DNA of 64,000 nucleotides, taken from contig JABLUY010000017.1 of the NCBI GenBank assembly GCA_013306675.1, positions 124,001 to 188,000 of the forward strand, read 5' to 3'. Below the pieces are notes generated by a model. That model searched no databases. It saw only the letters and a program-made list of their open reading frames with translations, and had not been told where the DNA came from. Of this stretch, positions 1,130 through 16,254 are shown piece after piece. The position numbers and the translations under genes were made by a program. How positions within the stretch are numbered: the stretch's first letter is position 1; each line of letters begins with the position of its first letter. Origin of the DNA: Thraustochytrium sp. TN22. Lineage: Eukaryota > Sar > Bigyra > Thraustochytrida > Thraustochytriidae.

Positions 1130-4078
1130 TCACAATGATGTCCTCGGTGACAAGGAAGGAGAGAGACCGAGAAAGCGACTGAATTCGGCCTTGGTGATGA
1201 CGCCGTCGCCGTCGACGTCGAGTGAGCTGACAAGGATGCCGAGTTCGTACTTGGAGAGGTGCTCGCCGAGCGGTGTTGCAAGGAGGGCCTTTTTCAGCTC
1301 CTTTAGTGAGAGGGTGTCGTTGTGGTTGCCGTCAGCCTCGGCAAAGATGTCCTCCCAGGTCCAGTTGTCGCCCATTGCGGTCATCATGAGGTCAGCGGTG
1401 CGCGCGGCGAGCTCAAGGACGTAAGGGTCGACGTTGTCGATAGAGCGGGAGACCGAGTAGCGGCGCGAGAGGCGCTTCTTGTCGTCCTCGTCGAGCGCCT
1501 CGTCGTCGCGCTCAAGGTTGAAAACCTTGCGGATGATGAACTCCTGACGGGCGAGCTGGATGCGCACGTCCTGCGGCACGTCGGGGACGAGGTAGTCGAT
1601 GAGCCACTTGAGCACGAGCACGACGGCCACGAAGATCACCCAGAGCCAAACCCGGGTGCCTCCGCTGGCAGTCTCCTCTGAGATGATGGAGGAAGAGAAG
1701 AGGATGACGGCGGCGTTGGAAAGCACGGCGATGAAACCCATGATCTGAAAGATCTTGCGCCAGGTACCGATGTCCTGGGCCTCCTCGAGCGCCGGGCGGC
1801 GCGAGAGGATGCAGACCTTGTAGGAATCCACGTGGACCTCAATGAAGTTGTTGATGAGCGCGAGGAGCGGCGCGATGGGGAAGGCCGCGACGAAGAGTGA
1901 GACGTAACCGAACTGGATGGCAAGCTCGAGATAGTCGTCGAAGGGAGACTCGTAGAACTTGAGGTAGAACTGGTGCTCGACGGGCGACTTCATGCGCTGG
2001 CGCACATTGGCATTCTCGAGGTCAGGCTCCAGCTTCTTCCCCCCGGCCCCTTTCTCGGCGTCGCGACGCACACCGAGGGCGGTTCCCATGTCGTCAAGGC
2101 CGCCCTGGATATCGTTGGCGGCCTCGTTGGCCTTCTTGGCGATGGCCTTGGCGTGCGCGCGAATGTCGAGGATGGCCTTGACCTTGGCCATGATGAAGGG
2201 GATGCCGACCTCCTGGATGTTGCCCACGACGATCTGGGTGCCGAAGATGATAAAGAGCGAGTACGCGAGCGAGCCGTAGCAGGCGTCGGCGTTGATGATG
2301 AGCTCCTTGTCGGCCTCGTTGGTGGTGAGAAGCTCCTCGGCCTCGGCGACGCAGAGCTGCGTGACGCCGAGGATGTCACGGCCGCTCTTGATGAAGGCGA
2401 AATAGGTGAGGGTGGCGTAGGAGTTGACAAAGGAGAAGATGAAGGTCTTGGTGATGAGCGCGTCCTCCCACTGGATGTTGGTGCGCCAGTTCTCCCAGTT
2501 GGTCAGGCCGCGCGCCACGACCTTGTAGACGTTACCGAGGATAAGAATGACGACGGCGTTGACGACAAGGGCGACCTGGGGCGCGGCCGAGGCTGGCAGC
2601 CAGCCGGCAGAGAAGTCGGGTGCCGACACGAAGACCTTGAGCACGAGGATGCCGACGATGGCGGCGATGACCACGATGATGGAGACAGCAATGATCGAGG
2701 CGGAAATCGTGAGCTTGCGCATGAGGTCGAAGCGCGAGTAGTACTCGATGGGCTCGCCAGTCACGGGATCCGGGATGACGTGGGTGGCGTGGAACTGCAC
2801 GCGGTTGCCGGTCTCGGCCTCGAAGTCGCTGGTGCCCCACTTGAGCGCGAAGCGGGCCTCCTTGCGCTTCCAGAACTCGATCAGCATGGACGCCCAGAGC
2901 GAGATGAAGAGCGCGAAGACGGGCGCCTCGGCCACCTGCGTGTACAGCTCCGTCGTGTACACGGTCTGCGTGTAGGTGTAGTTGTCGATGAGCGTGACGT
3001 TCTCGTACGAGACCACGACGGCGGCATTGCCAGAGCCGACGAGGTCCCAGCCGCCGGACTGCGCGTGCAGCTGGATGAGCTGGTGGAGGAAGATGATCGT
3101 GCCGATAAGGGCTGGCGCCACGAGCCACTTGGTATAGAAACCGAGAAAGGCGAAGTAGAGCGCCACCTTCTCGCCGGCGTAGTCGCGGATCTCGTCGAGC
3201 GGCTGGTCCCACGGGAAGCGACGCGCGCTGTTCCACTCCTCGAAAAGCTTGTCGGGCGTCATCTCCTTGGACTGCTCGCGCGCCGTGCCCAGCTGCAGGG
3301 GGTAGGCCGCCAGCATCTCCTTTTTGTAGATGAGCTTCTTGGTGTCGAGCTCCGCGCCGCACAGATGGTGCTTGGGGTCCTTGTGCTTGGAGCGCGTCAG
3401 CACTTTGCCGAGCAGCTTGATACGGTCCGCCGGGCGCAGGATGGTGTCATCGTTGTACGTCTTGTACACTTGCAGGCCCTGGTCCCTGAGGAAGCGCTTC
3501 TCCCAGGCGTCGCTGTAGCGCACGTGGAGGTCCTGCCACGGCGATAGCTTGGTGTACTGATGAATGAAGGCAGCGACCTCGGTCTGGCTCATGGAGCGCC
3601 AAGTCCCGTCCTGGCGCGACTTGTGCTTGAACTCGTGCGGGATGTCCACGCTCTCCGGGAACGGGTAGTCCAGGTAAAGCGGGCCGCGCTCTGCCACCCT
3701 GGTTTCGGCGATGGTCTTGATGTTGTCCTTGTCCAGCTTGAGCTTGTACTGCTGGATGTCGGCCTCCTTGAGCAGGCGGTCGTCCGTGGCGCCCACCTTG
3801 CAGAAGATCTGCCGCTTGGTACTGCTGTAGAAGAGCATGGTCACCAGGCCGGCGGCCGCCAGGTCGTCCAGCAGCGCCTCGCGCGCCTCATCCTGCGCCT
3901 CCTTGAGCTCGCCCTCGATCGCCGGGAACACCAGGCAGTACAGCCACGACACGCGCTCCTCGCGGTCGCGGTCGGCCTCCTCCTCGGCCTCGGGCTCCGC
4001 CCCGCTGAAGAGGCTGCCCATGGCCTTGGTCGCGATGACCTGCTCGAGCGAGGAAAGGCTGGCCAGCCACGTCCACAT
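1130..4078 (-). CDS. Anoctamin/TMEM16-family membrane protein with C-terminal EF-hands (copy 1)
   Basis: Anoctamins are calcium-activated phospholipid scramblases or anion channels with ten membrane segments. This 982-residue protein has a cytosolic N-terminal domain (about 1-300), then the TMEM16 core. Three calcium-site stretches are clear: GNIQEVGIP in TM6 (Glu near residue 623), DDYLELAIQFG in TM7 and INNFIEVHVD in TM8. Against mammalian ANO1, the TM6 Asn is Gly and the first TM7 Glu is Asp; the other acidic ligands are kept. After TM10 comes an EF-hand pair: DGNHNDTLSLKE, with Asp at the usual Gly position, and the canonical DVDGDGVITKAE. The fused EF-hands are not typical of animal anoctamins. 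The open frame runs upstream to a GTG; I start at the ATG at 4078. The ATG at 4021 (MGSLFSG) gives an N-terminus closer in length to the paralogues. Channel versus scramblase cannot be decided from sequence. Confidence 0.9.
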   Translation of the reverse strand: MWTWLASLSSLEQVIATKAMGSLFSGAEPEAEEEADRDREERVSWLYCLVFPAIEGELKEAQDEAREALLDDLAAAGLVTMLFYSSTKRQIFCKVGATDDRLLKEADIQQYKLKLDKDNIKTIAETRVAERGPLYLDYPFPESVDIPHEFKHKSRQDGTWRSMSQTEVAAFIHQYTKLSPWQDLHVRYSDAWEKRFLRDQGLQVYKTYNDDTILRPADRIKLLGKVLTRSKHKDPKHHLCGAELDTKKLIYKKEMLAAYPLQLGTAREQSKEMTPDKLFEEWNSARRFPWDQPLDEIRDYAGEKVALYFAFLGFYTKWLVAPALIGTIIFLHQLIQLHAQSGGWDLVGSGNAAVVVSYENVTLIDNYTYTQTVYTTELYTQVAEAPVFALFISLWASMLIEFWKRKEARFALKWGTSDFEAETGNRVQFHATHVIPDPVTGEPIEYYSRFDLMRKLTISASIIAVSIIVVIAAIVGILVLKVFVSAPDFSAGWLPASAAPQVALVVNAVVILILGNVYKVVARGLTNWENWRTNIQWEDALITKTFIFSFVNSYATLTYFAFIKSGRDILGVTQLCVAEAEELLTTNEADKELIINADACYGSLAYSLFIIFGTQIVVGNIQEVGIPFIMAKVKAILDIRAHAKAIAKKANEAANDIQGGLDDMGTALGVRRDAEKGAGGKKLEPDLENANVRQRMKSPVEHQFYLKFYESPFDDYLELAIQFGYVSLFVAAFPIAPLLALINNFIEVHVDSYKVCILSRRPALEEAQDIGTWRKIFQIMGFIAVLSNAAVILFSSSIISEETASGGTRVWLWVIFVAVVLVLKWLIDYLVPDVPQDVRIQLARQEFIIRKVFNLERDDEALDEDDKKRLSRRYSVSRSIDNVDPYVLELAARTADLMMTAMGDNWTWEDIFAEADGNHNDTLSLKELKKALLATPLGEHLSKYELGILVSSLDVDGDGVITKAEFSRFLGLSPSLSPRTSL

Positions 4079-4681
4079 GGAGCGCCGGCGGCTGGCCTGG
4101 CCTGGTTGTGAAGGGGCCTCGAGGCGCCGCGCCGCGCCGCGCCGCACAAGCGACCGCCCGCTCGGGCGACCACGCCGCACCGCACCGCGCCGCGCGCAGT
4201 GGCGGTGGACGAAGGGGCTTCACTCGCTCTGCAATTCCCTCTCTCGGCGCCGGGCTCTCTTGGCGCGGATGGCGCGCGCCATGGTCAGCGCGTGCAGCGC
4301 GTGTACAGACTGCTGCGGGCCAGGCGTGGGCGCTGCAGTGGCCGGGCGGGCCGTGGCGGCCGCCAGCTATCCAGCCCGGCGCCAGAGTCTACGGGTTGGC
4401 TAGCGGGCAGCCGAGGCGACCAGCAAGTCTGCATCGTCACGGTCGCTGCGGCGCTGGTCAGGCTGCAGTGAAGACCGTCCGAGTCGTCGCCGTGGTCAAG
4501 TGAACTTGAAGTCCGAGTCCCTCACTGGCAGTCACAAGGTTGAGTCCGTGTTGACAGCGACTCAGCGAGGTTAAAGGTGACTTCAATAGTTCAACTTCAA
4601 ATCCAACTTCAAGTCGCCACCGTGACCGTGACGGCCCGCTGGCCGGGGTTGTGGCGAGTTCTTGAATCGGAAAAAAAATCT

Positions 4682-4733
<52 letters not shown>

Positions 4734-4734
4734 C
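4079..4734. promoter_or_regulatory. Upstream region of anoctamin copy 1 and 3' flank of copy 2
   Basis: This 656-base gap holds the promoter side of copy 1 (right to left) and the 3' flank of copy 2. ACTTGAAGT or its reverse complement occurs near 4504 and 4605, with a close relative near 4591. From about 4632 the sequence matches the 3' flank of copy 3 almost base for base, followed by a GA dinucleotide run. No gene is visible. Confidence 0.5.
4688..4731. repeat. (GA)n microsatellite in the 3' flank of anoctamin copy 2
   Basis: About 22 uninterrupted GA repeats end a few bases after the copy 2 stop codon (minus-strand gene). The equivalent place beside copy 3 (10138-10180) has a shorter GA run broken by other bases. 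So the repeat was present before the duplication and then diverged in length. Confidence 0.95.
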
Positions 4735-7596
4735 TTAGAGGTTGAGGAAACGGCGGAACTCGGCCTTGGTAATGGTGCCGTCGCCGTCAACGTCAATAGA
4801 GCTGACCAGGATACCGAGCTCGTACTTGGAGAGGTGCTCGCCGAGCGGGGTGGCGAGAAGAGCCTTCTTGAGCTCCTTGAGCGAGAGGGTGCCGTTGTGG
4901 TCGGCATCGGCCTTGGCGAACATCTCCTCCCAGGTCCAGTTTTCGCCCATGGAGGTCTTCATGAGGTCCGCGGTGCGGGAGGCCAGCTCGAGAATGAAGG
5001 GGTCGACGTCGTCGATGGTGCGGGAGACCGCGTAGCGGCGCGAGAGGCGCTTCTCCTCGTCGTCGAGCGCCACGTCGTCGCGCTCGAGGTTGAAGACCTT
5101 GCGGAGGATGAAGTCCTGACGGGCGAGCTGGATGCGCACGTCCTGCGGAACGTCGGCGACGAGGTACTCGATTAGCCACTTGAGCACGAGCACGACTGCA
5201 ACAGAGATCATCCAGAGCCAAGGGCGAGCGTCCCCGCCGACGACATCTTCGGGGATGAGGTTGGAGGAATAGAGGATGACACCCGCATTGGAGAGCACGG
5301 CGATGAAGCCCATGATCTGAAAGATCTTTCTCCATGTGCCAATGTTCTGTGCATCCTCGAGCGCTGGGCGCCGCGAGAAGATACAGACCTTGTATGAATC
5401 CACGCGGACCTCGATGAAGTTGCTGACGAGTGCGAGAAGCGGCGCGAGGGGGAAGGCCGCGACGAAGAGGGAGACGTAGCCGAACTGGATGGCAAGCTCG
5501 AGGTAGTCGTCGAAAGGAGACTCGTAGAACTTGAGGTAGAACTGGTGCTCGGCGGGCGACTTCATGCGCTGGCGCACGTTGGCGTCCTCAAGATCCGGCT
5601 CCATGATCTTCTCCTCATCGGCCTCCTCATCGGCGTCGCGACGCGTGCCGAGGGCGGCGCCCATGTCGTCGATGTCAATCTGAGTGTCCTTGTTGGCCTT
5701 CTTGGCGAGGGCCCTGGCGTGCGCGCGAATGTCGAGGATGGGCTTGACCCGAGTTTTGATAAAGAGCATGCCGACCTCCTGGATGTTGCCCACGACGATC
5801 TGGGTGCCGAAGATGATAAAGAGCGAGTACGCGAGCGAGCCGTAGCAGGCGTCGGCGTTGATGATGAGATCCTTGTCGGCCGCGTTCGTGGTGAGAAGCT
5901 CCTCGGCCTCGGCGACGCAGAGCTGCGTGACGCCGAGGATGTCGCGGCCGCTCTTGATGAAGGCGAAATAGGTGAGGGTGGCGTAGGAGTTGACAAAGGA
6001 GAAGATGAAGGTCTTGGTGATGAGCGCGTCCTCCCACTGGATGTTGGTGCGCCAGTTCTCCCAGTTGGTCAGGTTGCGCGCCACGCCCTTGTAGACATTG
6101 CCGAGCAGAAGGATGAGCACGGCGTTGACGGTGAGAGCGACCTGGGGCGCGGTCTCGGCCGGCAGCCAGTCGGCGGTAAACTCAGGAGCCGACACAAAGA
6201 CCTTGAGTACAAGATTGCCAACGATGGCGGCGAAAACCACGACGAGGGAGACAGCAACGATCGAGGCGGAGACCGCGAGCTTCCGCATGAGGTCGAAGCG
6301 CGAGTAGTACTCGATGGGCTCGCCGTCCTCGGGGCTCGGAATGATGTGGGTGGCCTTAAACTGTACGCGGTTGCCAGTCTCGGCCTCGAAGTCGCTGGTG
6401 CCCCACCTAAGCGCGAAGCGGGCTTCCTTGCGCTTCCAGAACACCATGAGCATGGATGCCCAAAGCGCGATGAAGACCGCGAAGACGGGCGCCTCGTCCA
6501 CTTGCGTGTACAGCTTCGTCTCGTAGACGATCTGCGTGTAGGTGAAGTTGTCGATGAGCGTGACGTTTTCGTACGAGATCACAATGGCGGCGTTGCCAGA
6601 GCCCATGAAGTCCCAGCTGCCGGTCTGTGCGTGCAGCTGCTTGAGCTGATGGATGAAGATGCCCGTGCCAATGACGGCCGGCGGCACGAGCCACTTGGTG
6701 TAGTGGCCGAGGAAGGCGAAGTAGAACGCCACCTTCTCGCCGGCGTAGTCGCGGATCTCGTCGAGCGGCTGGTGCCACGGCAGTCGACGCTTGCTGTTCC
6801 ACTCCTCGAAGAGCTTGTCGGGAGTCATCTCCTTGGACTGCTCGCGCGCCGTGCCCAGCTGCAGAGGGTAGGCCGCCAGCAGCTCCTTCTTGTAGATGAG
6901 CTTCTTGGTGTCGAGATGCGCGCCGCAGAGACCATGCTCCGGGTCCTTCATCTTGGAGCGCGTCAGCACCTTGCCCAGAAGCTTGATGCGGTCCGCTGGG
7001 CGCAGGATGGTGCCATCGCTGTACGTCTTGTACACCTGCCGGCCGTGGTCCTTCAGGATGCGGTGCTCCCAGAAGTCGTTGTAGCGCACGTGGAGATCCT
7101 CCCACGGCGACAGCTTCGTGTTCTGCCTGATGTACTTGGCCACCTCGTTCTGGTCCAACGGGTGCCAGGTCCCGTCCAGGCGCGACTTGTACTTGAACTC
7201 GTGCGGCATGTCCACGTTCTCTGGGAACGGGTAGTCCAGGTACAGCGGGCCGCGGCCGTAGCGCTCCTCGTCGTCCTTGCTCTCGGCGATGGCCTTGATG
7301 TTGGCCTTGTCCAGCTTGAGCTTGTACTGCTGGATGTCGGCCTCCTTGAGCAGGCGGTCGTCCGTGGCGCCCACCTTGCAGAAGATCTGCCGCTTGGTGC
7401 TGCTGTAGAAGAGCATGGTCACCAGCTTGGCGGCCGCCAGGTCGTCCAGCAGCGCCTCGCGCGCCTCATCCTGCGCCTCCTTGCGCTTGCCCTCGGTCGC
7501 CGGGAACACCAGGCAGTACAGCCACGACACGCGCTCCTCGCGGTCGCGCTCCGTCTCCGCCTCGGTCATGATCGCGTCCACATCCGTCTTCGCCAT
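4735..7596 (-). CDS. Anoctamin/TMEM16-family membrane protein with C-terminal EF-hands (copy 2)
   Basis: A 953-residue paralogue of the flanking anoctamins with the same order: cytosolic N-terminal domain, ten-segment TMEM16 core, then an EF-hand pair (DADHNGTLSLKE and DVDGDGTITKAE). The TM6 calcium Glu is near residue 607 in GNIQEVG. The segment after it reads MLFIKTRVK rather than the IPFIMAKVK of copies 1 and 3. TM7 DDYLEL and TM8 FIEVRVD keep the acidic ligands. The start ATG at 7596 gives MAKTDVDAIMTEAETERDREERVSWLYC, shared with copy 3. About 57 bases upstream of the start are also shared with copy 3, so the promoter was duplicated with the gene. Several TM3-TM5 positions differ from both paralogues (for example SLVVVFAAIVGN), so this is the most diverged copy in the membrane core. 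Confidence 0.92.
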   Translation of the reverse strand: MAKTDVDAIMTEAETERDREERVSWLYCLVFPATEGKRKEAQDEAREALLDDLAAAKLVTMLFYSSTKRQIFCKVGATDDRLLKEADIQQYKLKLDKANIKAIAESKDDEERYGRGPLYLDYPFPENVDMPHEFKYKSRLDGTWHPLDQNEVAKYIRQNTKLSPWEDLHVRYNDFWEHRILKDHGRQVYKTYSDGTILRPADRIKLLGKVLTRSKMKDPEHGLCGAHLDTKKLIYKKELLAAYPLQLGTAREQSKEMTPDKLFEEWNSKRRLPWHQPLDEIRDYAGEKVAFYFAFLGHYTKWLVPPAVIGTGIFIHQLKQLHAQTGSWDFMGSGNAAIVISYENVTLIDNFTYTQIVYETKLYTQVDEAPVFAVFIALWASMLMVFWKRKEARFALRWGTSDFEAETGNRVQFKATHIIPSPEDGEPIEYYSRFDLMRKLAVSASIVAVSLVVVFAAIVGNLVLKVFVSAPEFTADWLPAETAPQVALTVNAVLILLLGNVYKGVARNLTNWENWRTNIQWEDALITKTFIFSFVNSYATLTYFAFIKSGRDILGVTQLCVAEAEELLTTNAADKDLIINADACYGSLAYSLFIIFGTQIVVGNIQEVGMLFIKTRVKPILDIRAHARALAKKANKDTQIDIDDMGAALGTRRDADEEADEEKIMEPDLEDANVRQRMKSPAEHQFYLKFYESPFDDYLELAIQFGYVSLFVAAFPLAPLLALVSNFIEVRVDSYKVCIFSRRPALEDAQNIGTWRKIFQIMGFIAVLSNAGVILYSSNLIPEDVVGGDARPWLWMISVAVVLVLKWLIEYLVADVPQDVRIQLARQDFILRKVFNLERDDVALDDEEKRLSRRYAVSRTIDDVDPFILELASRTADLMKTSMGENWTWEEMFAKADADHNGTLSLKELKKALLATPLGEHLSKYELGILVSSIDVDGDGTITKAEFRRFLNL

Positions 7597-8280
7597 CCTG
7601 GCCGCTCGCGGGGGCGTGCGGGCCTGCGGGCGTGCGCGCGGGCGCGAGAGGAACGAGGAGCGTGGGGGGAGCGCGTGGGTACGCGCGGGACGCGCGCGGG
7701 ACGCGCGCGGGAGCGCCGGGACGGGGTACCCCGCGGGCTACCCCGCTCGAACCGAAAGCCGCGCTTCGACCGGCCGCTGATCGGGCTCTACGCGGCGTCC
7801 TGGCCGGCGTAGCTCGCGCGCGAGCGCCCGGCGCGCGTGTGCATGGGCTGCGTGTCCGGAGGCGATACCCTGACTGTGTCCTCGGGTGCACAAACCGGCC
7901 TGAGCTCAGCTGCAGTCGGCCGTGCCTTCAAGTTCACTGCGCCAACTTCAAGTTGGGCTGTATGATCACTGATGACTGCAGCGCGCGCGAGTGCCGTCAA
8001 ATAGATGCGTGGAATCCCATCTTGCCGTAGTCAGGGGTGCCCACGCGGAAGCGGAGGAGCGGAGTTGGAAGAAAAAAAGGTTTTGATGCGCGCGATAAAG
8101 TTGCCCTCAGAGTGAGAACGTCCGCTTCAACTGAAAGTGCCACGCAGCCACTGGCAATTTGGCAAACGTGCCAAGGCGTGCTAAAGCTCAATTCCCAGTG
8201 TTCCCTTTTGGAAGGTTTGACTGCGAGCTGGGGGGGCAGCCTGCCGATGGCCACTCATTAACGTTACTCTTTTAAGTGAC

Positions 8281-8300
8281 TAGTAGCTAGCTAGCTACTA
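8281..8300. repeat. 20-bp perfect palindrome
   Basis: The sequence TAGTAGCTAGCTAGCTACTA equals its own reverse complement. It lies about 690 bases upstream of the copy 2 start. It has no spacer, so it could form a cruciform or bind a dimeric protein. Nothing nearby marks it as the end of a known element. Confidence 0.9.
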
Positions 8301-8843
8301 CTTAGGGTCTGTAGCTGACTCTAAGCTGAGGCCAAACTCTGTAGGCTGTAGGTAGTAGCTGAGCCATACTCGTCCAAAACGGAGTGTTGGTACGTCCCAA
8401 ATTCATTTCGGCGCTCTTTTGCGCTGGAATCTGGGGTTGCTCGGTAGTTGAATGCGGCGGTGGGTGACTCGGACCGTAGAACCCGGCCATGTTGGCATTG
8501 TTGTCGTCAAAATGACTAGCTTGGAAGGCCGCGGAAGGGGGGTCGGGTGGGGCAGGCTTCGGCATGCCGAAGCGGACATCGGCACTCGCGCGCGCGCCGT
8601 GATCGTACAGCCTGAGTCAGTGAGAGTCAGAGTCAGACGGTATCGCAAACTTTAGTGAAGCACTGGTCTTGACACATCGCTGCAAAATTTGCTCTTCTTG
8701 GTCAGAACTGCCCTTAAGCGCTGCAGCGCCCGCCTCAGCCTCGAAGCCTCGCACCCGCAGCGCCCCGCGGCTGCATTCCACAGCAGTGGCTTGGCTCCCT
8801 TCAGCTGGGTAGCCCAAGCACTCGCGCAGGCATGATCTACTAA

Positions 8844-9970
8844 TTGAAGTTTGCACCACCTGCGCAACTCGCTGTTTCCTGTAGACTACCCGTTGATTTG
8901 GTCGAAACTGGCGCTGATTCTTCGGAAGCGCTGCGTTTGTTCTTTGGACAACTGTCTGCGGATCTCTGCGACAAGTCGCTCCTCACCGTCTGCCTGGGAT
9001 TATTACGACGCACGTTCACAAACTCTCCAACCTCCGCGAATGGGCTCTCCGGCCTGCCGCAGGCCATCGCCGAGCTTGGCTTTTGTCCCTGATTTTCACA
9101 CGACTGCTTGGGGTCACATTGCACGTTCACAAGCTCTCTGACTTCCGCGCTTTTGAGGCGAGCCAAATTCCTTGCTGCGATACAAAGTGTGGGAGCCCAT
9201 GGCTCTCACCAAGCAACCTGTTCCAAGCTAGGAGGTTGCTACATATCTCCCAACACTTGATTGTGTCAAGCGAGGCTCCGCGTTGACTCGCAAGTCACCT
9301 CAGCTAACAATCCCTGCGCACCTCAAGGCCTACGTCTGAAATGATTGGCTCGCCATGGCCAGCGACATCGACTCGAGACCACTTCGTTCCGCGGCGATCG
9401 GGTTTGACGTTCGGACCTCATACGTATTGCGCCTTGACGCCATACAAAGCTGTTTTTGTGACAGCTCAGCATCTCTACTTACTCTGGATAGCCTCTCCAT
9501 CCCCTGCACCTCACAAGAGTTCCGCTTCAACGAAGCCATTGCGGTTGTGCGACCATTCGGCTCGCTCCAGAAGGATCAGGTTCAACGTCTGTGCTCTTGA
9601 ACTCTGGACTCGGAATTGCTGGGGCCAGGCGGCTTGTTGAGGTCCGCGATGGCAGCTTACAGATCACAGCTCGGCCGAGCGCAGCACCTGAGAAAGAACC
9701 GCTACGACTTCGCGCCATCGAGTCACTGTTTGATTCCCGAGCACTTATGCCAGTGGGTATGCGGGCCTTTGCCCGCCCGGCGGAGATGCGGGCGGGCAAA
9801 GGCCCGCATAGTCAGAAGTAGCGTCTTGCTCGACGTGGTGGTCGATCTCTTTACGGGCGAGCTAGGCGAGGCAGGCGTGCGCTTGGCCGACTCTACAGAG
9901 CTGCACTTGCTGTACAACATGCTCGCCAAGCGATTACGCGCGAGCTGGCGACTGCCTTCACGGGAACTCC
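8844..9970 (+). other. Possible decayed or multi-exon coding sequence
   Basis: Four consecutive plus-strand segments read like protein but lie in different frames: about 8910-9090 (SADLCDKSLLTVCLGLLRR), 9355-9597 (FRFNEAIAVVRPFGSLQKD), 9591-9750 (GLGIAGARRLVEVRDGSLQI) and 9815-9965 (SVLLDVVVDLFTGELGEAG). The third loosely resembles the G-box end of a histidine-kinase ATPase domain, but one motif is not enough to name it. The 53-bp palindrome at 9758-9810 lies between the last two. It could be a broken gene, unrecognised exons, or chance. Confidence 0.2.
9758..9810. repeat. 21-bp perfect inverted repeat with 11-nt loop
   Basis: Positions 9758-9778 and 9790-9810 are exact reverse complements over 21 bases, with core GGGCCTTTGCCCGCCC. 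The 11-base spacer (9779-9789) would form the loop. A GC-rich perfect stem this long is unlikely by chance. Possible origins are a miniature foldback element or a structured RNA. No target-site duplication was found. Confidence 0.92.
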
Positions 9971-10082
9971 GTCATACTTTGCTAAGCGAAACCCATGAAC
10001 CGCAAGAGAAAGTGAAAAAGAGAGATTGTGGTGACAGCACCTCTGTCGTCAGAAGCCATGCAGTCACACGTCCAAGACAACA

Positions 10083-10183
10083 CGGCCCGCTGGCCAGGGT
10101 TGTGGCGAGTTCTTGAATCGGAAAAAAAATCTTGGGTTGAGAGAGAGAGAGAAAGAGAGAGACACACACAGATAGAGAGGACC
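10083..10183. repeat. Duplicated 3' flank shared by anoctamin copies 2 and 3
   Basis: From 10083 up to the copy 3 stop, the sequence matches 4631-4734 beside copy 2, with one mismatch in roughly the first 60 bases and then a diverged GA run. It includes GGTTGTGGCGAGTTCTTGAA and an A8 tract. This shows that the duplication unit extended beyond the coding region at the 3' end as well as the 5' end. Confidence 0.92.
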
Positions 10184-13060
10184 TTAGAGGTTGAGGAAAC
10201 GGCGAAACTCGGCCTTGGTAATGGTGCCGTCACCGTCGACGTCGAGGGAGTTGACCAGGATGCCGAGCTCGTACTTGGAGAGGTGCTCGCCGAGCGGGGT
10301 GGCGAGAAGAGCCTTCTTGAGCTCCTTGAGCGAGAGGGTGCCGTTGTGGTTGGCATCGGCCTCGGCGAAGATCTCCTCCCAGGTCCAGTTGTCGCCCATG
10401 GAGGTCTTCATGAGGTCCGCGGTGCGGGAGGCCAGCTCGAGAATGAAGGGGTCGACGTCGTCGATGGTGCGGGAGACCGAGTAGCGGCGCGAGAGGCGCT
10501 TCTTCTCCTCGTCGTCGAGCGCCTCGTCGTCGCGCTCGAGGTTGAAGACCTTGCGGATGATGAAGTCCTGACGGGCGAGCTGGATGCGCACGTCCTGCGG
10601 CACGTCGGCGACGAGGTAGTCAATGAGCCACTTGAGCACGAGCACGGTGGCCACGAAGACCACCCAAAGCCAAACGCGAACGTCACCGCCGACGACATCC
10701 TCGGGGATCACGTTGGAGGAATAGAGGATGACACTGGCGTTGGAGAGAACGGCGATGAAGCCCATGATCTGGAAGATCTTGCGCCAGGTACCGATGTCCT
10801 GGGCCTCCTCGAGCGCCGGGCGGCGCGAGAGGATGCAGACCTTGTAGGAATCGACGCGGACCTCGATGAAGTTGTTGATGAGGGCGAGGAGCGGCGCGAT
10901 GGGAAAGGCCGCAACGAAGAGGGAGACGTAACCGAACTGGATGGCGAGCTCGAGGTAGTCGTCGAAGGGAGACTCGTAAAACTTGAGGTAGAACTGGTGC
11001 TCGACGGGCGACTTCATGCGCTGGCGCACGTTGGCGTCCTCAAGATCCGGCTCCATGACCTTCTCCTCATCGGCCTCCTCCTCGGTGTCGCGACGCACGC
11101 CGAGGGCGGCGCCCATGTCATCGATGCCAACCTGAATGTCCTTGGCGGCATCGTTGGCCTTCTTGGCGATGGCCTTGGCGTGCGCGCGAATGTCGAGGAT
11201 GGCCTTGACCTTGGCCATGATGAATGGGATGCCGACCTCCTGGATGTTGCCCACGACGATCTGGGTGCCGAAGATGATAAAGAGCGAGTACGCGAGAGAG
11301 CCGTAGCAGGCGTCGGCGTTGATGATGAGCTCTTTGTCGGCCTCGTTGGTGACGAGAAGCTCCTCGGCCTCGGCAACGCAGAGCTGCGTGACGCCGAGGA
11401 TATCGCGGCCGCTCTTGATGAAGGCGAAATAGGTGAGGGTGGCGTAGGAGTTGACAAAGGAGAAGATGAAGGTCTTGGTGATGAGCGCGTCCTCCCACTG
11501 GATGTTGGTGCGCCAGTTCTCCCAGTTGGTCAGGTTGCGAGCCACGCCCTTGTAGACGTTGCCAAGCAGAAGAATGACGACGGCGTTGACGACAAGGGCA
11601 ACCTGAGGCGCGGCCTCAGCCGGAAGCCAGCTGGCGGAGAACTCCGGGGCCGACACGAAGACCTTGAGCACGAGGATGCCGACGATGGCGGCGATGACGA
11701 CGATGATGGAGACGGCAATGACCGAGGCGGAAACCGTGAGCTTGCGCATGAGGTCGAAGCGCGAGTAGTACTCGATGGGCTCGCCGTCCTCGGGGCTCGG
11801 GATGATGTGGGTGGCCTGAAACTGCACGCGGTTGCCAGTCTCAGCCTCGACGTCGCTGGTGCCCCACTTGAGCGCGAAGCGGGCCTCCTTGCGCTTCCAG
11901 AACTCGATCAGCATGGACGCCCAGAGCGAGATGAAGAGCGCGAAGACGGGCGCCTCGGCCACCTGCGTGTACAGCTCCGTCGTGTACACGGTCTGCGTGT
12001 AGGTGTAGTTGTCGATGAGCGTGACATTCTCGTACGAGACCACAATGGCGGCGTTGCCAGAGCCGATGAGGTCCCAGCCGCCAGACTGCGCGTACAGCTG
12101 GATGAGCTGGTGGACGAAGATGACCGTGCCAATGACGGCCGGCGGCACGAGCCACTTGGTGTAGTGGCCGAGGAAGGCGAAGTAGAGCGCCACCTTCTCG
12201 CCGGCGTAGTCGCGGATCTCGTCGAGCGGCTGGTGCCACGGCAGTCGACGCGTGCTGTTCCACTCCTCGAAGAGCTTGTCGGGCGTCATCTCCTTGGACT
12301 GCTCGCGCGCCGTGCCCAGCTGCAGAGGGTAGGCCGCCAGCATCTCCTTCTTGTAGATGAGCTTCTTGGTGTCGAGCTGCGCGCCGCAGAGACCATGCTC
12401 CGGGTCCTTCATCTTGGAGCGCGTCAGCACCTTGCCCAGAAGCTTGATGCGGTCCGCCGGGCGCAGGATGGTGCCATCGCTGTACGTCTTGTACACCTGC
12501 CGGCCGTGGTCCTTCAGGATGCGGTGCTCCCAGGCGTCGTTGTAGCGCACGTGGAGATCCTCCCACGGCGACAGCTTCGTGTTCTGCCTGATGTACTTGG
12601 CCACCTCGTTCTGGTCCATCGGGTGCCAGGTCCCGTCCAGGCGCGACTTGTACTTGAACTCGTGCGGCACGTCCACGTTCTCTGGGAACGGGTAGTCCAG
12701 GTACAGCGGGCCGCGGCCGTAGAGCGCCTCGTCAACCTTGCTCTCGGCGATGGCCTTGATGTTGTCCTTGTCCAGCTTGAGCTTGTACTGTTGGATGTCG
12801 GCCTCCTTGAGCAGGCGGTCGTCCGTGGCGCCCACCTTGCAGAAGATCTGCCGCTTGGTGCTGCTGTAGAAGAGCATGGTCACCAGCTTGGCGGCCGCCA
12901 GGTCGTCCAGCAGCGCCTCGCGCGCCTCATCCTGCGCCTCCTTGCGCTTGCCCTCGGTCGCCGGGAACACCAGGCAGTACAGCCACGACACGCGCTCCTC
13001 GCGGTCGCGCTCCGTCTCCGCCTCGGTCAAGACGACCGCGTCCACATCCGCCTTCGCCAT
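10184..13060 (-). CDS. Anoctamin/TMEM16-family membrane protein with C-terminal EF-hands (copy 3)
   Basis: A 958-residue TMEM16-family protein. The N-terminal domain and both flanks follow copy 2 (MAKADVDAV, TEAETERDREERVSW). Stretches of the membrane core follow copy 1 instead, for example NYTYTQTVYTTELYTQVAEA and EVGIPFIMAKVKAILD, interleaved with copy 2 stretches such as HIIPSPEDGEPIE. That patchwork suggests gene conversion. Calcium-site stretches are GNIQEVGIP (Glu608), DDYLELAIQFG and INNFIEVRVD. The EF-hands are DANHNGTLSLKE and DVDGDGTITKAE. The start is the ATG at 13060, and the leader before it is shared with copy 2. The expected activity is calcium-gated lipid scrambling or ion conduction at the plasma membrane or ER, inferred from the family. 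Confidence 0.93.
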   Translation of the reverse strand: MAKADVDAVVLTEAETERDREERVSWLYCLVFPATEGKRKEAQDEAREALLDDLAAAKLVTMLFYSSTKRQIFCKVGATDDRLLKEADIQQYKLKLDKDNIKAIAESKVDEALYGRGPLYLDYPFPENVDVPHEFKYKSRLDGTWHPMDQNEVAKYIRQNTKLSPWEDLHVRYNDAWEHRILKDHGRQVYKTYSDGTILRPADRIKLLGKVLTRSKMKDPEHGLCGAQLDTKKLIYKKEMLAAYPLQLGTAREQSKEMTPDKLFEEWNSTRRLPWHQPLDEIRDYAGEKVALYFAFLGHYTKWLVPPAVIGTVIFVHQLIQLYAQSGGWDLIGSGNAAIVVSYENVTLIDNYTYTQTVYTTELYTQVAEAPVFALFISLWASMLIEFWKRKEARFALKWGTSDVEAETGNRVQFQATHIIPSPEDGEPIEYYSRFDLMRKLTVSASVIAVSIIVVIAAIVGILVLKVFVSAPEFSASWLPAEAAPQVALVVNAVVILLLGNVYKGVARNLTNWENWRTNIQWEDALITKTFIFSFVNSYATLTYFAFIKSGRDILGVTQLCVAEAEELLVTNEADKELIINADACYGSLAYSLFIIFGTQIVVGNIQEVGIPFIMAKVKAILDIRAHAKAIAKKANDAAKDIQVGIDDMGAALGVRRDTEEEADEEKVMEPDLEDANVRQRMKSPVEHQFYLKFYESPFDDYLELAIQFGYVSLFVAAFPIAPLLALINNFIEVRVDSYKVCILSRRPALEEAQDIGTWRKIFQIMGFIAVLSNASVILYSSNVIPEDVVGGDVRVWLWVVFVATVLVLKWLIDYLVADVPQDVRIQLARQDFIIRKVFNLERDDEALDDEEKKRLSRRYSVSRTIDDVDPFILELASRTADLMKTSMGDNWTWEEIFAEADANHNGTLSLKELKKALLATPLGEHLSKYELGILVNSLDVDGDGTITKAEFRRFLNL

Positions 13061-14889
13061 CCTGGCCGCTCGCGGGGGCGTGCGGGCCTGCGGGCGTGCG
13101 CGCGGGCGCGAGAGGAGCGGGGCGCGCGCGGGGGGGGCGGGGGCCGCCGCTCGCGCCGCGGGCGCGCTCGACCGGCCGCTGATCGGGCTCTACGCGCCGT
13201 CTGCCGCCGCCTCGGCGTAACTCGCGCGCGCGCGCCGGCGCGTGTGCACGGGGCCGCCTTAACGCGCGCCTCGGGCCCGCGGCCGCCGCCCGCGCGCGTA
13301 AGGCGCCGGCCCAGCGCGTGAACGGCGGGGTCCAGCCCGCGCGGTACGGCACGCCAAAAGTGGAGAGCGGCTGGCCTCCGAGTCCGAGTCCGAGTCCGGG
13401 GCGCGAGCGAGCGAGCGAGCGAGCGAGCGAGCGAGCTGCGAGCGAGCTGTGGCTGGCCATGGGCGCCGGGCTGCGCGCGCTGGAGTTCATGATGCAGAGG
13501 CATTGCAGACGTGTGCGCTGGGTCGACGCAATAACCACAGGCGCGCGGCAGCGATGGTGATACTTCCTTTTGGCAGCTGAAAGCCAGCGGGATGCATTTG
13601 CAACAACAGACGCTGACGCTGGGCTGCGGAACGCAACGGGAGGCGGTATCCGACATCCGACAGTATTCGACGGTATGGTTGATCGATGAGCGCGTCGGCC
13701 GCCGCACGTGCGCATGCCGCATGCGGCATGTTTCTCTCGATCACACTGGAGGACTGGCTACGGTAGCCTACGAATCTGTGATGACGAGGAAGGCGGCCAG
13801 CTCGCGACGCGGGCGTCGCTGTGCGGTGCGGCGCCGCGTGCAGCTCGTGCTCGGATACCTAACTTACTAATCAGATGCCCCTCAGGCTGCCCATGGCCAT
13901 CAAGTACTAACAAACATGCGCGCGCAGGCCGGCCTGACCGCCGCGGCCAAGAGCGGCGCCGCGCCGCCGCGACTCGCGGCCGGGCAGCCTGCCGCCGTTG
14001 GCGGGCCGTAGTGGTCAAGCCCTGGCAGCCGCAGCCCGAGCCCGCAGAACTCGAATGCGATGCGGACGTCGCCCGAGTCCTCGTCCTTCGCCACGACACG
14101 ACACGACGGCGCCGGGCGCTGGCCGCTCCTCTGCACAGCAGCATGAACACGGCTGGAGCCAGTGGAGCGTGGTGATGGCAGGCTCCACTGCCAGCAGCGC
14201 ACAATGCACGGCTGCAGTGCGAGCCGAGGCGCCTCTCAACGTCAACTTGAAGTCTTCTTCAGCAAGTTGAAGACCAGTTGACAGTGAGAGCCGCACTGCA
14301 GGCACGCGAAAGAAAGCGAAAGAAAGCGAAAGAAAGCACGCGGCGGAACGCGCGTGGGGGAACGCGGCTGACCCCACGCGCGCGCACACACGTGCGCGGT
14401 CGCCGGCTCAGCTCCGCAAGTGCGGCGTCGGCCGGGCGCCACTTGCAGAGGCGCGGGCGCCACTTGCGCGCGCCGCGAGCCCGACTTGCGGCGCGCGCCG
14501 CAAGTGGCGCCGCGCCGGCGGAGCACGCGCGCGCCGCGGGTCCAGGCGCGCCGAGCCCGACGCGCGCGGGGCGGCGGGCGCGCGCGCGGCAGAGCGCGAG
14601 AGGGCGAGCGGCGGCGGCGGCGGCGCGCGGCGGAGCGGCGCGAGCGGCCGGCGGGCGAGCGAGCGAGCGAGCGAGCGCGCGGGCGGCGGGCGGCGGGCGC
14701 GGGCGGCTGGGCGGCCAGCCAGGCAGGGCCTCGACTCCCTCGCTCGGCGCAGGCCCGCGCGAGGGCTGCGCTGCGCTGCGCGGAGCGGAGGAGCGCGGCG
14801 CGGCAGCTGGACGCAGCGGAGCTGGAAACGGAGCTGGAGCCGGAGCTGGAGCTGCAGCAGCAGCAGCAGTAGCAGCCGCGGCCGGAAGC
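13061..14889. promoter_or_regulatory. Divergent promoter region between anoctamin copy 3 and the SH3-LIM gene
   Basis: This 1.8-kb region separates two divergently transcribed genes. It holds the duplicated anoctamin leader (13061-13117). Further along are a GAGTCC run (about 13378-13396), a GAGC tetramer run (about 13400-13432), an 18-bp palindrome (13713-13730) and two ACTTGAAG-type sites (14245 and 14264). Three GCGAAAGAAA units (about 14306-14335) and a second GAGC run (about 14652-14675) follow, before a very GC-rich leader into the ATG at 14890. No gene is visible. Confidence 0.5.
13713..13730. repeat. 18-bp perfect palindrome
   Basis: CATGCCGCATGCGGCATG is self-complementary and spacer-free. 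It lies about 650 bases upstream of anoctamin copy 3 and 1.2 kb upstream of the SH3-LIM gene. It could be a binding site for a dimeric regulator. Confidence 0.85.
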
Positions 14890-16254
14890 ATGGCGGAGGA
14901 AGAGGGCACGATCGCGGTGGCGGTCTTCGACTTCGAGCCGCTGCGCGATGACCACCTGCGGTTCAAGGCCGGCGACGTGATCCTCGTGATCGAGATGAGC
15001 GACAGCGGGTGGTGGCGCGGGTCGGACGCCAAGGGCGTGGTGGGCTCGTTCCCGTACAACTACGTGGAGCTGCGCGACAGCGTGGGCGATAGCTTCCCGG
15101 TGTGCCGCGCGCTGTACGAGTACGAGGGCGTGAACGAGGGCGACATCCCGCTGCACGAGGGCGACCTGGTGACGCTGCTGCGCGAGCTGAGCGATGACTG
15201 GTGGCTCGGCCGCCTCAAGGACGGCAGGGAGGGCACCTTCCCGTCCGCGTACGTGGAGCGCACGGAGCTGGAGGACGTCGAGGCCGCCAAGGCCGAGAAG
15301 AAGCGGTGGTCCGCCATGCGCAAGGATGCGCAGCGCGCGCTCAAGGAGGCCACCAAGCAGCGCGCCTCGCTCGAGCGCCGCGCCGCCAAGGAGAAGGCCG
15401 AGGCCGAGGAGCGCGAGCAGCTCCTGCGCGAGGCGCGCGAGGCCGCCGAGCGCGCGCGCGCCGCCGAGGAGGAGCTCGCGCGCGTCAAGGCCGAGACCGC
15501 GCGTCTGCGCCGCGCCGAGGAGGAGCGCAAGGCGCGCCGCAGCATGCGCGCCTCCAAGCGCGTCACGGAGACCCAGCGCCGCGTGCGCGAGAAGGCCACC
15601 TCCGTCGCGCTCAAGTTCGACGGCCACTCCCCCGGCCCGCAGCCACTGCCTGAGGACCGCGATGCCTTTTCAGACGCCACGCGCAGCACGGGCCGCACCA
15701 CTAAGAAGACCGCGGCCGCGGACGACGACGACGACTTCTTCGGGGCGCCTGCCGACGAGCCGCCCGTGCCCGTGCGCAACACCACCTGGACCGACGCCTC
15801 CGCTGCCGCCGAGCCGCCCTCCGAGGAGGCGGACGCCGAGGACGCTGCCGCTGGCGACGCCGAAGACATTCCGCCGCGCGCCGGCACCGCGGCCGGCAGC
15901 GGCGCGAACAAGCCCAAGTTCAAGTACAACTCCAAGTTCGCCAACCTCGGCGGCGGCTCCCGCTGCACCATCTGCGGCAAGACCGTTGGCTACGCTGAGA
16001 AGGTCAAGGCGCTCGGCAAGGAGTACCACACGAACTGCTTCCGCTGTTCCACCTGCTCCGTCGTCCTGCGCCAGGGCGAGTGGCGCGGCCACGGCGACTT
16101 CCCTTACTGCCACAAGTGCCACGCCCAGGGCTTTGGCATCAAGGGCTTCGGCTTTGGCGGCTCCGTCGTCCCGGTCTCCGCCGGGGAAGGCAAGCCCGAG
16201 TCCGAGCTTGATGACAAGCCGCTCTTCAGCGTGCTCAAGCAGGACAGCGCTTGA
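14890..16254 (+). CDS. SH3-SH3-coiled-coil-LIM adaptor protein
   Basis: A 454-residue scaffold protein. Two SH3 domains lie at about residues 8-62 (AVAVFDFEPL, GWWRG, GSFPYNYVEL) and 72-127 (ALYEYEG, DDWWLGRL, GTFPSAYVE); both keep the ALYDY-like strand, the Trp pair and the terminal Pro-x-x-Tyr. A highly charged coiled coil follows (about 135-235), then an acidic linker. A LIM zinc-finger domain starts at CTICGK (residue 359) and ends at CHKCH (about 410). The family-level role is linking proline-rich ligands to the actin cytoskeleton; the exact partner is unknown. The open frame extends far upstream without an ATG, through GC-rich repeats. The ATG at 14890 sits directly before the first SH3 domain and is the sensible start. 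I know no close animal homologue with exactly this order. Confidence 0.88.
   Translation: MAEEEGTIAVAVFDFEPLRDDHLRFKAGDVILVIEMSDSGWWRGSDAKGVVGSFPYNYVELRDSVGDSFPVCRALYEYEGVNEGDIPLHEGDLVTLLRELSDDWWLGRLKDGREGTFPSAYVERTELEDVEAAKAEKKRWSAMRKDAQRALKEATKQRASLERRAAKEKAEAEEREQLLREAREAAERARAAEEELARVKAETARLRRAEEERKARRSMRASKRVTETQRRVREKATSVALKFDGHSPGPQPLPEDRDAFSDATRSTGRTTKKTAAADDDDDFFGAPADEPPVPVRNTTWTDASAAAEPPSEEADAEDAAAGDAEDIPPRAGTAAGSGANKPKFKYNSKFANLGGGSRCTICGKTVGYAEKVKALGKEYHTNCFRCSTCSVVLRQGEWRGHGDFPYCHKCHAQGFGIKGFGFGGSVVPVSAGEGKPESELDDKPLFSVLKQDSA

Follow-up and report, generated by a model that had tools for sequence, protein, structure and literature searches.

Three adjacent TMEM16 genes with a C-terminal EF-hand pair in Thraustochytrium sp. 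TN22

Gene layout and domain order

Three adjacent TMEM16 (anoctamin) genes, each a single ORF, are located on the minus strand of the window, the 64-kb stretch of DNA that was analysed as a whole (Table 1). The frames are free of stops on the minus strand over positions 1130–4219, 4735–7737 and 10184–13189 (1029, 1000 and 1001 codons, stop to stop), and counted from the first ATG the proteins are 982 aa (gene 1), 953 aa (gene 2) and 958 aa (gene 3) long. From the N to the C terminus, all three consist of a dimerisation domain (Anoct_dimer), a complete Anoctamin domain and an EF-hand pair (EF-hand_7), every one of them above the curated Pfam cut-off. The Anoctamin match scores 387–414 bits against a cut-off of 28 and spans profile positions 1–460 of 460 in each gene. 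In gene 3 the EF-hand pair starts at residue 895, 76 residues past D819, the residue aligned with the TM10 aspartate of TMEM16F. Hydropathy of the gene 3 protein gives ten peaks over the threshold, two of which overlap and some of which are just above it.

Three neighbouring TMEM16 genes with an EF-hand pair after TM10 had been proposed in a preliminary description of this DNA, and the Pfam domains, held in one frame in each of the three genes, bear this out. The coordinates given there are also correct, with the qualification that the start of gene 1 is more likely the in-frame ATG at 4021 (MGSLFSG...) than that at 4078; the former coincides in position with the starts of genes 2 and 3. Read from 4021, gene 1 would begin with a putative N-myristoylation start, MGSLFSG presumably resembling the signal for this modification; genes 2 and 3 have no such start.

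A separate downstream origin of the EF hands, one of the outcomes named beforehand as refuting the idea, was looked for. In each of the three genes the core and the EF-hand pair are read in one frame without interruption, and the pair is thus not a separate gene. A separate transcript, or three copies created by an assembly error, is likewise very improbable. Both the linker and the tail are conserved across the three genes, the copies are 9–18 % apart in protein, and matches between their flanks are limited to 94–114 bp at E ≤ 1e-5.

The GC content of the window is 67 %. On its plus strand, a frame at 3–281 corresponds to the C-terminal end of an IscS-type cysteine desulfurase (91 residues fit the end of the model, E 2.4e-47; no Pfam match at 0.001), and a frame at 14251–16254 contains two SH3 domains and one LIM domain.

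Table 1. Positions in the window of the three TMEM16 genes, their domains and their EF loops
Feature	Position	Strand	Evidence
Gene 1, TMEM16 with C-terminal EF-hand pair, stop TGA	1130..4078	−	single ORF, Pfam
Gene 1 anoctamin dimerisation domain PF16178	3197..3940	−	E 4.7e-9
Gene 1 Anoctamin domain PF04547	1544..3190	−	E 1.4e-123
Gene 1 EF-hand pair PF13499	1172..1354	−	E 3.6e-9
Gene 1 EF loop DGNHNDTLSLKE	1298..1333	−	
Gene 1 EF loop DVDGDGVITKAE	1184..1219	−	
Gene 2, TMEM16 with C-terminal EF-hand pair, stop TAA	4735..7596	−	single ORF, Pfam
Gene 2 anoctamin dimerisation domain PF16178	6763..7518	−	E 1.4e-6
Gene 2 Anoctamin domain PF04547	5116..6756	−	E 1.8e-115
Gene 2 EF-hand pair PF13499	4747..4929	−	E 2.6e-11
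Gene 2 EF loop DADHNGTLSLKE	4873..4908	−	
Gene 2 EF loop DVDGDGTITKAE	4759..4794	−	
Gene 3, TMEM16 with C-terminal EF-hand pair, stop TAA	10184..13060	−	single ORF, Pfam
Gene 3 anoctamin dimerisation domain PF16178	12224..12979	−	E 3.7e-7
Gene 3 Anoctamin domain PF04547	10568..12217	−	E 1.6e-120
Gene 3 EF-hand pair PF13499	10196..10378	−	E 4.2e-11
Gene 3 EF loop DANHNGTLSLKE	10322..10357	−	
Gene 3 EF loop DVDGDGTITKAE	10208..10243	−	

The EF-hand tail and the calcium sites of the core

All six EF loops have D at position 1, D or N at positions 3 and 5, and E at position 12; the glycine at position 6 is absent only from loop 1 of gene 1. The motif DVDGDGTITKAE, which the preliminary description had quoted for the tail, holds for loop 2 of genes 2 and 3 and fails for gene 1, which has DVDGDGVITKAE. 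The top PDB matches of the tail are calmodulins (E 1.5e-12), and NCBIfam finds an EF-hand resemblance below its cut-off (30.4 of 120 bits). Modelled alone, the tail of gene 3 forms two helix-loop-helix units, with a block-mean pLDDT of 65–82 over most of the pair and an overall pLDDT of 59.5. Foldseek with this model, which includes the low-confidence linker, returns calmodulin first (E 3.6e-4, TM-score 0.37, rmsd 14.9), with poor superposition overall. Three of the 501 Foldseek matches are at E ≤ 0.001, and almost all of the best 50 of the 501 are EF-hand proteins, calmodulin among them, or sensors derived from such proteins. A full-length AlphaFold2 model, built with three sequences, has a mean pLDDT of 33.5, too low for use. 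The linker from core to tail is strongly charged (ERDDEALDDEEKKRLSRRYSVSR in gene 3) and is a possible partner of the EF lobe.

For the core, calcium ligands were mapped by alignment of gene 3 to solved TMEM16F, with genes 1 and 2 placed through a MAFFT alignment with gene 3; the roles of the ligands and of the third site in TMEM16F follow passages of PMC8640346. Residues E624, E667, E670, E699 and D703 of mouse TMEM16F correspond to E, D, E, E and D in all three genes, so that the acidic ligand positions of TM6–TM8 are acidic in five of five cases. An aspartate at the E667 position is also present in fungal nhTMEM16. N620 is G throughout (asparagine kept in 0/3), and N695 is kept in genes 1 and 3, with S (S725) at this position in gene 2; therefore the primary site is not identical to that of TMEM16F. 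The earlier statement that the TM6–TM8 ligands are mostly kept is accurate with these asparagines as the exceptions.

At the third site (TM2/TM10), all three genes keep K398; the glutamate E395 is present in genes 1 and 3 but missing from gene 2, where the equivalent is V385. The position of TMEM16F D859 is D in all three genes by a direct alignment that is weak (−2.9 bits). D615 of TMEM16K aligns, in an 87-bit stretch, with an aspartate of L004, a further anoctamin of the same genome, and that aspartate aligns with D819 of gene 3.

The inner-gate residues F518 and Y563 of TMEM16F correspond to A and S in the trio, which may be a hint, and only a hint, of a scramblase-type gate. At first sight, A and S at these positions resemble gain-of-function gate residues as described in passages of PMC8640346. 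The idea that a leaky gate of this kind makes the tail a needed brake was tried and dropped, as solved TMEM16K, a Ca2+-activated scramblase, has A and C there by two chained alignments. This weakens the case for a tail that is autoinhibitory or inactivating, in which Ca2+-loaded EF hands would shut the protein (desensitisation), a sign opposite to sensitising. The position of the tail close after TM10 would suit such a brake and calmodulin-driven inactivation of other channels offers a precedent, and overall an inhibitory tail seems quite improbable.

Duplication, selection and related frames in the genome

Identities and Ka/Ks were computed pairwise among the three genes with our own Nei–Gojobori-type script. 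Protein identity is 0.906 between genes 2 and 3, 0.876 between genes 1 and 3, and 0.819 between genes 1 and 2. The EF pair gives Ka/Ks values of 0.076 (1 vs 3), 0.093 (1 vs 2) and 0.231 (2 vs 3), and the TM core 0.244, 0.315 and 0.263, respectively. The low EF-pair values of gene 1 result from a high Ks (0.79–0.87); Ka, at 0.06–0.08, is like that of the core (0.05–0.10), so that constraint on the tail is about that on the core in absolute terms. These values suggest that gene 1 has an older tail, or one that has undergone less conversion. In the comparison of gene 2 with gene 3, the EF-pair Ka/Ks rests on 11 changes and the linker Ka/Ks of 0.93 on 4 changes. The tail thus evolves as protein, and comparisons of gene 1 with the others show purifying selection on the EF pair.

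Patterns of shared sites along the trio are blocky: they form 167 runs, shuffling gives 247 on average, and none of 2000 shuffles is as low. For instance, residues 361–400 show zero third-position and zero amino-acid changes when gene 1 is compared with gene 3, and genes 2 and 3 have 7 third-position differences (319 positions compared) in their first 320 residues. Such a mosaic of shared sites across 1130–13060 fits gene conversion. The downstream flanks of genes 2 and 3 share a 107-bp match (91.6 %), and their upstream flanks share two matches, one of 114 bp (84 %) and one of 94 bp (82 %). The downstream flank of gene 1 has no match to the flanks of genes 2 and 3 at E ≤ 1e-5, and its upstream flank, which is the downstream spacer of gene 2, shows the 107-bp match alone. 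From this pattern, the more recent duplication is probably the one that gave genes 2 and 3. By eye, an inverted repeat of about 20 bases per arm is seen at 9757–9811, in the spacer of genes 2 and 3.

The assembly searched comprises 37.9 Mb in 453 contigs and was read exon by exon, so that counts are lower bounds. A six-frame search for the anoctamin family found at least five places, namely the trio and one each on contigs C415 and C423. The last was rejected as an anoctamin: although the six-frame search gives it 31.3 bits, above the cut-off of 28, its full frame scores 26.8 bits and matches TMC above the cut-off. Gene 3 as query against its own genome returned the trio and C415, plus one EF-hand match. 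L004, the frame on C415, is TMEM16K-like (best solved match Anoctamin-10/TMEM16K, E 1.9e-58) and has no EF-hand match in Pfam up to E 1. A vestigial EF hand was considered for L004, as MAFFT placed part of its C terminus on the EF loops; Pfam gives none and 0 of 18 matches to the tail fall on C415, and the placement was put down to chance. Because L004, the only other clear anoctamin found in the genome, is without an EF-hand match, the fusion probably arose once, followed by tandem duplication with gene conversion.

The 18 matches come from a six-frame search of the genome with the tail, in which the trio is found at E ≤ 1e-72 and the next 15 matches begin at E 3.8e-5. Five frames were scanned among these 15 outside the trio, and three also hold C2, PI-PLC or Ion_trans domains; one, L028:1–1887, is an Ion_trans channel frame with an EF-hand pair after the channel domain. 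Elsewhere in the genome, C124 (L006–L010) has a PUFA-synthase-like frame of 3044 aa (2539.7 bits to the PfaA model, cut-off 1010.1) and an opposite-strand neighbour of 2083 aa that matches the PfaA model too. Chlorophyll-binding proteins have no match in the genome at E ≤ 0.001. Taken with the GC content of the window, these features suggest a thraustochytrid, given the biology of that marine group.

The company that EF hands keep in three of those five frames suggests that such tails may serve various ends, and the acidic ligands of the TMEM16 core are intact by themselves. Both points favour a tail that is a structural or partner-docking module, or a local Ca2+ buffer, and does not set gating, the core alone sensing Ca2+. 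Set against this, the canonical ligand positions of all six loops and the purifying selection seen with gene 1 fit a Ca2+-binding use, and a mere docking or buffering role is somewhat unlikely.

Known relatives and a proposed second calcium input

Within the trio, gene 3 was the query for a whole-protein search of the PDB, and the best 60 of 215 matched sequences were examined. Its best solved relative is Anoctamin-6/TMEM16F (E 1.2e-63). The best 60 include 20 TMEM16 chains, all with their best stretches within the core; matches to the tail come from calmodulins, and none of these 60 is a solved TMEM16 with this tail as the best-matching stretch. TMEM16F (e.g. 9o1p, 6p46) is like the trio in its acidic TM6–TM8 ligands, third-site K398 and, by weaker alignment, D859, yet it is matched over the core alone and differs at F518/Y563 (A/S in the trio) and N620 (G). 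Fungal nhTMEM16 and afTMEM16 have a homologous core (E 3.9e-37 for 4wis and 1.3e-33 for 6dz7, to gene 3), likewise matched alone and more weakly than TMEM16F. Anoctamin-10/TMEM16K is also homologous (E 3.5e-47 to gene 3) and is the nearest type for L004, unlike the trio.

Second calcium elements have been described in other settings. Passages of PMC8640346 relate that an EF-hand-like N-terminal Ca2+ reservoir was proposed for TMEM16A by Tak et al. 2019; like the tail of the trio it is a second Ca2+-responsive element outside TM6–TM8, but it is an acidic stretch in the N-terminal region, whereas the trio has an EF-hand pair after TM10. PLSCR scramblases carry one EF-hand-like loop (passages of PMC8202325) and so resemble the presumed scramblases of the trio in having an EF-hand-like Ca2+ motif within the protein, although they belong to a different protein family and have a single unconventional loop. 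A calmodulin lobe is the best sequence match of the tail, the trio having one lobe only, fused in cis.

Searches of viral contigs confirmed 0 of 4 pattern matches with gene 3 as query and 0 of 104 with a four-protein alignment, and in prokaryote genome contigs 0 of 10 were confirmed with gene 3. Among the matches listed in the open-licence literature on TMEM16/anoctamin with EF hands, on fusions and on such organisms, no TMEM16/EF-hand fusion was found, and the main text of PMC5868767 has 0 occurrences of EF-hand. The core is known and the tail is known; their union appears unusual, though proteins built this way may already be present in protein databases without comment.

Both termini of TMEM16 family proteins face the cytosol. 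The trio proteins would be dimeric, as in the rest of the family, and the core would open on cytosolic Ca2+ bound between TM6, TM7 and TM8. This core is most likely a Ca2+-activated phospholipid scramblase, perhaps passing ions too. The calmodulin-like EF pair would sit on its charged linker just past TM10, presumably on the cytosolic side, and its ligand positions suggest that it binds Ca2+. When Ca2+ is raised, the pair would close onto either the linker that carries it or the cytosolic domain and pull TM10, which would contribute to both the third regulatory Ca2+ site and the dimer contact. Being close after TM10, the tail could thus act on the third-site and dimer region, and the pull may tune the Ca2+ sensitivity or the run-down of the core. 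For this account as a whole, a TMEM16F-like Ca2+-activated scramblase or channel whose gating is tuned through TM10 by a tethered calmodulin-like lobe, we put the chances as about even. The EF hands would then, we infer, form a second tier of Ca2+ control on the same chain.

The trio might further represent a lineage-specific TMEM16 class, in which a cis calmodulin lobe serves as a second Ca2+ input and determines the range over which the core works, and in which the paralogues have been tuned apart for different Ca2+ levels or membranes, gene 2 being without the third-site glutamate and an asparagine ligand and gene 1 perhaps N-myristoylated. This wider proposal is speculative and, taken whole, rather unlikely.

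A passage of PMC5868767 describes early claims that TMEM16 requires calmodulin, and purified ANO1 that later proved to need none and to be Ca2+-activated without an accessory protein. No EF hand is therefore needed for Ca2+ activation. Calmodulin tuning of TMEM16 has been disputed, and a built-in EF-hand pair offers a clean natural test of calmodulin-like input, with the trio also supplying natural variants in which the third and primary sites are altered. In these proteins, one chain may read Ca2+ in two separate ways.
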